DNA from: Hyphomicrobiales bacterium
GTDB lineage: Bacteria > Pseudomonadota > Alphaproteobacteria > Rhizobiales > Beijerinckiaceae
Reading direction: 5' to 3'
DNA length: 36,851 nt
NCBI GenBank assembly: GCA_019246665.1
Contig: JAFAQA010000134.1
Coordinates: 1-36,851 of the forward strand
In this document: piece after piece, positions 32,786 through 34,303 of the stretch
Layout of the letters: every line of letters starts with the position of its first letter
Numbering within the stretch: the first letter of the stretch is position 1
Notes under the pieces: generated by a model
Seen by the model: only the letters and a program-made list of their open reading frames with translations
What the model was told of the DNA's origin: nothing
Databases searched by the model: none
Position numbers and translations under genes: made by a program

Positions 32786-33460
32786 TCAAGTGGCCGTCAG
32801 CTTGCGGACCTCGATGGTCCGGATCGCGACCGAGACCGTTATTTCGAAATGATCCGTCTGGACGATCTCCGTGATGTTGAGCGGACGGTGAGCGGCGACG
32901 TTTTGCCCATGGCGCCGCCTCAGGCTGTCGTAGAGGATGCCGGCGCCTCCAGAGGCTCGCATCTTTTCCCCAAGCATCTGAGAGGCGTCGTATCGGTCCG
33001 AGGCGTAGATGTCGGCGCGGGCGAGCTGCTGGCCTCGGATGTCGAGATATTCTCCCAATAGAGTGGCGGAATAGGCGCGATACCGGCGACTCATGGAAGG
33101 GAGGGCGCGCGCCAGGGTTTCGCGCCTGAGATGATGACCGACCTCGGCCGCCGAGGTGCGCAGATCATCGGCCGCATACCATGCCCCAAGCTCGGCACCA
33201 TTGAAGCGCATGCCTCCCGGCGGAACATGCAAAAACGCCCCCATCACGATGCTGGAGTTTGGCCTGCCATAGGCCCATTCCGATCGCGGTAAGCGCGCGA
33301 TCCGATCGGCGACAAAGCGGTCGTTCGTCCACCCGACGAGTTCCATGACGGCTGCCAAATCAGCCGCCATGGAGACTGAGTCGAAAAGTCCGATCGGAGG
33401 AAATTGCGAAGGTATCAGTCGGAAAGCCGGCAGCGGCGCCGCCGCGTATGCATCCGTCAC
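32786..33460 (-). CDS. RES domain toxin (type II TA)
   Basis: This 224-residue protein is a RES-domain toxin, a family related to ADP-ribosyltransferases whose members degrade NAD+ or ADP-ribosylate a metabolic enzyme. The conserved residues are visible: Arg85 in MRFNGAELGAWYAA with Tyr95, Glu106 in TSAAEVGHH and Ser179 in GAGILYDSLR. The GTG start at 33460 overlaps the antitoxin stop by 4 bases (GTGA), so translation is coupled. It lacks any truncation. Convergence with adenosine kinase without a spacer means readthrough or antisense transcription is possible. Confidence 0.92.
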   Translation of the reverse strand: MTDAYAAAPLPAFRLIPSQFPPIGLFDSVSMAADLAAVMELVGWTNDRFVADRIARLPRSEWAYGRPNSSIVMGAFLHVPPGGMRFNGAELGAWYAADDLRTSAAEVGHHLRRETLARALPSMSRRYRAYSATLLGEYLDIRGQQLARADIYASDRYDASQMLGEKMRASGGAGILYDSLRRRHGQNVAAHRPLNITEIVQTDHFEITVSVAIRTIEVRKLTAT

Positions 33461-33975
33461 CGAAACACCAGCTCATTGTCCTCGTAAGGCAGGAAGTCGA
33501 TGTCCAGCGAATTCGGCGGCATGTATTGGCCGCCCCGCGCGCCATCGAGGAAACGGCGCACGGTCAACAGAGCGTCCTGCGAGCCGCTCGTCACGAGATC
33601 GAGCGGAGATCGCCCGCCAAAGACGGGCGCGTTATGCGGACCTCTTAGCCAAGCGACGCCAAGCCGCTCATTTGGATACAATATGCCGAGCGCCTGGTGA
33701 ATTCCGAACACCGCTGAAATGCGCGTCAATGTATCGACGCTCAAGGTGAATGACCCGTGTTCCCGGGCGAGACGGCACCAATTGTAATAAGTTGAGCGCG
33801 AGGGAAGGCCCAAAACTAAAAGCCGCTGCTCTTCGCTCAAGCCCCACAGATCCGCGATGGCGAGGAAGGTCCGCAGCGCGGGCGCGCTGAGGCGCCGACG
33901 ATTGGCTGATGCGAAAGAGGCCCCGCTCGCTCGTTGGGCGGCATCATGGGAAGATAAGGCTCGGCGGGTTTTCAT
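33457..33975 (-). CDS. Xre/MbcA/ParS-type antitoxin (DUF2384 C-terminus)
   Basis: This 172-residue antitoxin pairs with the RES toxin and should bind DNA to repress the operon. An N-terminal Xre-like helix-turn-helix (LRTFLAIADLWGLSEEQRLLVLGLPSRSTYYNWCR, about 34-68) is followed by the ParS/MbcA toxin-binding region (AVFGIHQALGILYPNERLGVAWLRGPHNAPVFGGRSPLDLVTSG). The C-terminal tail QYMPPNSLDIDFLPYEDNELVFR extends past the usual end of DUF2384. It may fill the toxin's active-site cleft, as a C-terminal antitoxin tail does in MbcA-type pairs; that is inference. The ATG at 33975 has a weak site (TGGACC). An operator with three half-sites lies 8-31 bases upstream. Confidence 0.9.
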   Translation of the reverse strand: MKTRRALSSHDAAQRASGASFASANRRRLSAPALRTFLAIADLWGLSEEQRLLVLGLPSRSTYYNWCRLAREHGSFTLSVDTLTRISAVFGIHQALGILYPNERLGVAWLRGPHNAPVFGGRSPLDLVTSGSQDALLTVRRFLDGARGGQYMPPNSLDIDFLPYEDNELVFR

Positions 33976-33982
33976 GTGATGG

Positions 33983-34021
33983 TCCAGATCTGGATATAGT
34001 CCAGATTGGGCCTCAAGGCAA
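33983..34021 (-). promoter_or_regulatory. RES/Xre promoter with overlapping three-half-site operator
   Basis: On the minus strand a -35-like TTGCCT (34021-34016) is followed after 17 bases by TATATC (33998-33993), about 18 bases before the antitoxin ATG. On the plus strand TCCAGATCTGGA (33983-33994) is a perfect 12-bp palindrome. ATCTGGA-TATAG-TCCAGAT (33988-34006) is a second inverted repeat sharing the middle half-site. The sites cover the -10 and start point, as expected for antitoxin autorepression. Confidence 0.65.
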
Positions 34022-34042
34022 TGCGTCCCTCAGCAGGCAGAT

Positions 34043-34062
34043 CTGCATTCACCTGCATTCAC
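34043..34062. repeat. tandem 10-bp direct repeat
   Basis: CTGCATTCAC occurs twice in perfect tandem in the AT-rich gap upstream of the RES/Xre operon. No function is evident. It sits outside the predicted core promoter (about 20 bases upstream of the -35). Confidence 0.55.
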
Positions 34063-34266
34063 TGATCTTTGGTTGGGGCACGCCACGATCGAGCACCTGG
34101 TCGCAAGGGTCAGAGCAAATCACTCTTCGCGGATATTTTATGTGGCTGGCTATTTAATTTGATTAACCGGATAATGTGATTTCGCATTTGCGCCTGAGCG
34201 GATTTACTATGTAAGCCTCGAACCTGGGATGTAATTGTAAAAACGCCCTTTAAATCGCGTTGCGGA

Positions 34267-34280
34267 CCGTTTGCAAACGG
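34267..34280. promoter_or_regulatory. 14-bp perfect palindrome downstream of coaA
   Basis: CCGTTTGCAAACGG is a perfect palindrome 23 bases past the coaA stop. No T-tract follows, so a terminator is unlikely. Its half-site CCGTTT matches that of the inverted repeat upstream of the aldo/keto reductase (23825-23841). It could be a regulator site or coincidence. Confidence 0.35.
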
Positions 34281-34303
34281 CTTGCGCTCAATAGGCAGCT
34301 AAT

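Follow-up and report, generated by a model that had tools for sequence, protein, structure and literature searches.

The 36,851-nucleotide stretch of DNA that we analysed (the window) carries an xre-res module on its minus strand, flanked by a PfkB-family kinase gene and coaA (32786-34300). The features of the module and its promoter are as follows.

32786..33460, minus strand: res toxin gene, 224 aa, with a RES domain (PF08808, 3.4e-22)
33457..33975, minus strand: xre antitoxin gene, 172 aa, with an Xre-like HTH and an Xre/MbcA/ParS domain
33983..33994, no strand: palindrome B, TCCAGATCTGGA, perfect, at family position B
33993..33998, minus strand: -10 box TATATC, its register kept among relatives
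33995..33999, minus strand: spacer CTATA separating the two palindromes; most of the -10 falls in it
34000..34011, no strand: palindrome A, GCCCAATCTGGA on the minus strand, matching family position A
34016..34021, minus strand: -35 box TTGCCT, 17 bp from the -10

The Xre protein has two domain matches above cut-off, PF20432 (9e-9) and PF09722 (4.5e-8). Its structure model has mean pLDDT values of 84 to 97 per ten-residue block over residues 31-140, and its top nine Foldseek matches were exclusively Xre antitoxins of Xre-RES complexes; matched proteins include NatR, VPA0769 and the P. putida Xre, the latter also in its DNA-bound form (9R35). In RES, the residues R14, E106 and S179 are invariant in 24 homologues; the RES structure model (mean pLDDT 61) gave no significant matches and is too poor to use. 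The res start overlaps the xre end by 4 bp, and a downstream open reading frame of fitting length directly follows xre at 60 of 65 homologous loci. By domain content and gene order the pair is assigned to the Xre-RES (COG5642-COG5654) type II toxin-antitoxin modules, as a predicted two-gene operon with the antitoxin first. PADLOC returned no match to anti-phage families. Three congeners lack the module and hold other sequence in the same slot (L175 has an unrelated open frame of 134 codons, L174 and L177 have others), and a search of the three turned up no homologue of this Xre. The kinase-coaA gap is thus a variable slot within the genus.

The predicted xre promoter, TTGCCT-N17-TATATC on the minus strand, lies 5' of the xre ATG (33975), with 17 bases between the end of the -10 and the start codon. 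The original prediction had noted here three alternating heptamers (TCCAGAT, ATCTGGA, TCCAGAT) over these two boxes with their 17-base gap, and all were found where it had placed them. The first TCCAGAT (33983-33989, plus strand) overlaps the reverse complement ATCTGGA (33988-33994) by 2 bp, and together they make palindrome B, a perfect 12-bp palindrome. It starts at the 3' edge of the -10, spans the expected transcription start, which we infer at about 33986, and stops 7 bases short of the ATG. The other TCCAGAT (34000-34006) covers the inner half of palindrome A (34000-34005), which is intact; the outer half (34006-34011) is decayed. Upstream of the -35, a direct repeat CTGCATTCAC occurs twice in tandem (34043-34062). 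Within 33976-33986, the TGGA of the far half of palindrome B, 7 bases from the xre ATG, could also act as a weak ribosome-binding site; in relatives a GGAG-like motif usually stands apart, beyond that far half.

We note that the window alone does not make this cluster significant when all 7-mers are allowed. TCCAGAT is not rare in it (four copies observed, 4.3 expected), any 7-mer present three times within 24 bp gives five overlapping matches against a shuffle mean of 3.6, and 95% of window shuffles contain at least one such cluster. The case first made from the sequence was weak, although it was correct.

Much stronger evidence comes from relatives. For the comparison we took homologues of Xre from across many families of Alphaproteobacteria, 80 in number and 62-82% identical. 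Among them are sequences from Bradyrhizobium, Rhizobium, Afipia, Mesorhizobium, Caulobacter, Sphingobium, Novosphingobium and Acetobacteraceae; further relatives were added. Rhizobium dominates these homologues, so counts are also given on a non-redundant set of 48 promoters less than 75% identical. The sequence TCCARATYTGGA-CTATR-TCYARATYTGGA, that is, two tandem 12-bp palindromes around the -10 with their centres 17 bp apart, is present in the promoter of 74 of the 80 xre homologues, so that the half-sites do recur upstream of related Xre-RES operons; their absence from close homologues, which the original prediction had named as a refutation, is not what we see. At 79 of 94 loci, the window's included, the best match to the composite falls inside the xre promoter and above all background of the same locus. 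Across the 48 promoters the information content is high at the TTG of the -35, at G-TCCARATYTGGA-C (site A), at the TATR of the -10 and at TCYARATYTGGA (site B). On either side it is near zero, upstream of the palindromes between 30 and 13 bp and downstream from 7 bp on. TAT is found in the spacer between the palindromes in 42 of the 48 and TTG in the -35 register in 37. The conserved palindrome overlaps the promoter elements of its own operon.

A matrix built from the 48 promoters, with the window left out, scores 37.4 bits at 33982-34012 (minus strand) in a scan of the whole 36.9-kb window; the same site read backwards scores 25.3 bits, and the next best place 0.7 bits. We take the site to be real because of this score and its conservation among relatives. 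No second tandem site with up to two mismatches was found in the whole 4.9-Mb genome. The genome has five RES-domain genes (C14, C126, C426, C445, C517), and a TCCA palindrome lies near this one only; the exact palindrome TCCAGATCTGGA is absent from the other four RES loci.

Other scans added little. As a sign of a genome-wide regulon, the single palindrome with at most one mismatch was found at 19 places, against 7 for the reversed sequence, a control that is unfair for this count because it contains CTAG, often rare in bacteria; we do not propose a regulon. A consensus promoter scan gave no match, because its thresholds were strict and the last base of the -10 is C. Scanning 385 class-level genomes with a strict pattern likewise gave no match; the exact pattern misses even the window itself, and few of those genomes probably carry this Xre family. 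Among viral contigs, the pattern scan found one sequence, in two copies; no xre open reading frame was found downstream of it, and we regard it as unrelated.

The comparison also indicates what the unit of the operator is. In the family, four half-sites are seen: palindrome A lies between the -35 and the -10, and palindrome B runs from the -10 across the expected transcription start. Half-sites intact at five or more of six positions are found among the 48 relatives in 40 for A outer, 43 for A inner, 26 for B near and 26 for B far. The A outer half of the window is the lowest of all (-1.3 bits; next lowest 2.2; family mean 8.3), and its pattern, with A outer as the sole missing half, occurs in one of the 48. 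The unit is therefore a 12-bp palindrome, and the three half-sites of the window are a decayed form of four. Many relatives, chiefly Rhizobium, keep site A and have a weak site B (both B halves fall below five of six in 12 of the 48), so strength at both sites is not a requirement. Autorepression as such does not call for exactly the stacked sites that the original prediction had in mind. We found no correlation of half-site strengths by which A and B would compensate for each other.

The spacing was also examined without alignment, by searching for pairs of similar 12-mers (identity at least 9 of 12, at least one of them a palindrome) at distances of 13-45 bp; the other distances served as the control, since shuffles gave values too low to serve. 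Among close loci, pairs at 17 bp were found in 12 of 49 and at no other distance in this range. Among distant loci, pairs at 29 bp were found in 7 of 62, with at most one at any other distance. The half-sites of the distant operators differ, examples being TGCCAWWTGGCA, TATCATATGATA or, in Vibrio, TCTATATATGGA. One distant Xre subfamily (L007-L010, L131, L135, L138, L153, L154, L156) combines palindromes of the TGCCAWWTGGCA type with a second TGCCA site, which often follows at 29 bp, directly after a TATAT -10-like box; a different subfamily (L012, L144, L145) has one TATCATATGATA palindrome per promoter.

Evidence on which protein reads the site comes from homologues that lack it. The close homologues failing the operator test (Afipia L068, L073, L078 and L079, Bradyrhizobium L071, L092, and L111 on a Microvirga plasmid) all have a Lys or an Arg as residue 65 of Xre, a position that is Asn, Ser, His or Gly in the others; in L111 and L092, TCTA replaces TCCA in at least one half-site, and L094, with Arg, is intermediate. 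In the structure model this residue (N65 in the window's Xre) lies in the predicted recognition helix, residues 60-71, the third helix of the HTH. The operator accompanies N, S, H or G at residue 65 in 76 of 76 cases and K or R in one of 8. Fisher's exact test gives p 2e-9 if loci are treated as independent, which they are not; on the tree there are three residue-65 changes, at least two of them forced by well-supported branches, too few pairs for a tree-aware test. The association, resting on two to three independent changes, is supporting evidence pointing to Xre itself as the reader of the operator.

Known Xre-RES systems offer a guide to how such an operator may work. Among the closest is that of P. 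putida KT2440 (PXR, elements S3/S4; PDB 9R35, 6GW6), where, according to a 2025 structural study (PMC12204516), the Xre-RES complex sits on a palindrome in the xre promoter: the 4:2 complex binds it 1:1 and represses, the 2:2 complex loses DNA binding, and isolated Xre is a monomer that represses weakly. From crystal contacts and AlphaFold 3 the authors also proposed another site, some 20 bp upstream, with one complex gripping both promoter sites (PMC12204516). The order of sites in the window, the strong one near the gene and the weak one upstream, resembles this. The systems differ in that S4 is imperfect and site B of the window perfect, and in that the window's family has two TCCA-type sites at 17 bp rather than the roughly 20 bp proposed. 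The P. putida complex prefers the imperfect repeat, perfect versions binding far more weakly in vitro (PMC12204516), so being perfect does not by itself make B the best site. For NatR-NatT of P. aeruginosa (PDB 8QNL), whose NatR is the closest solved Xre fold and whose toxin differs in having a flap domain, PMC11535050 reports that the operon's own promoter is bound by the 4:2 complex but not by the smaller one; the text searched gives no operator sequence. M. tuberculosis MbcTA, Sphingobium ParST and Brucella mbcTA likewise pair a RES toxin with an Xre/MbcA/ParS antitoxin. In the open PMC papers that we consulted we found no description of operator architecture for these three; the Brucella mbcTA promoter was studied only as a reporter. 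Conditionally cooperative operators of other type II systems, such as Phd-Doc and CcdAB, also place several antitoxin sites over one promoter, and toxin bridging of antitoxin dimers has been shown there experimentally; for the window, bridging is inferred.

We conclude that the element is, with high probability, the autoregulatory operator of the xre-res operon, consisting of two tandem 12-bp palindromes that flank and overlap the -10. Autorepression is therefore very likely; an Xre dimer on either palindrome would exclude RNA polymerase, since both overlap or adjoin promoter elements. The original idea of an operator over the Xre-RES promoter, very probably an autoregulatory one, has in this way stood up; its geometry has not. 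By analogy with the known complexes, the repressor may be an Xre-RES heterohexamer of 4:2 composition, the two Xre dimers of which might hold A and B together, and the full complex would repress via B with help from A, which differs from repression by the antitoxin alone, given that isolated P. putida Xre is a weak repressor. Upon a shortage of Xre the complex would drop to a form unable to hold DNA, and the promoter would reopen. In this genome, with B perfect and only the inner half of A left, the operator would offer one strong and one weak site. Ratio sensing and cooperativity are plausible on the same analogy, from P. putida Xre-RES (PMC12204516) and NatRT (PMC11535050).

A possible objection is that the cluster is a chance grouping of a common heptamer, as most window shuffles yield something similar; the 37.4-bit match to a window-free matrix, in the expected place and register, refutes this, and we consider chance practically negligible. 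Another regulator might instead act on the xre promoter through this operator, given that the tie of Xre to the DNA is indirect, but the tandem site occurs in the genome only at this xre, is conserved with xre over many families and is lost once the Xre recognition helix changes, so that such a regulator is very improbable. The original prediction read the three half-sites as a stoichiometric switch, with TCCAGATCTGGA and ATCTGGA-N5-TCCAGAT forming overlapping inverted repeats that share the middle half-site. The window does have exactly three good half-sites, and a Cro-like dimer could accommodate either centre-to-centre distance, 8 or 9 bp. The relatives, however, have separate palindromes 17 bp apart; the outer half, superfluous to sharing, is kept in most of them and the window's pattern is a rarity; and in distant subfamilies intact palindromes 29 bp apart leave no half-site that could be shared. 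We regard a shared half-site as unlikely.

Separate Xre-RES complexes or Xre dimers might bind A and B side by side, with or without cooperativity and with no bridging; the operator itself would be kept. Side-by-side binding fits the 17-bp spacing, about 1.6 helical turns, its difference from 29 bp by a non-integer number of turns, and the 1:1 binding of the P. putida complex to a 30-bp probe. It is less easily squared with two fixed spacings and nothing between them, which suggest a rigid two-headed binder, with the two DNA-binding dimers of the 4:2 complex, or with the crystal contacts and structure prediction that put both dimers about 20 bp apart on one promoter. We give it a real chance, somewhat short of even. 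The two discrete spacings, 17 and 29 bp, favour bridging of A and B by a single complex. We offer, as a tentative proposal that could well be right but that we would not yet bet on, that Xre-RES promoters carry a two-headed operator, its palindromes 17 or 29 bp apart and flanking the -10, fitted to the pair of HTH dimers in a single 4:2 complex, with residue 65 reading half-site identity.

Paired palindromes at a fixed spacing in dozens of alphaproteobacterial xre-res promoters are independent evidence for two sites, to which the second fixed spacing (29 bp) in distant subfamilies adds. If the two-headed operator is true, comparative genomics would make the second DNA site proposed in P. putida both real and general, and the conserved operators are ready-made substrates for testing the two-site grip. 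The TCCA, TCTA and TGCCA half-site classes, together with the helix residues, provide a first basis for predicting the operon that each Xre controls in genomes with multiple RES genes, such as this one with its five.
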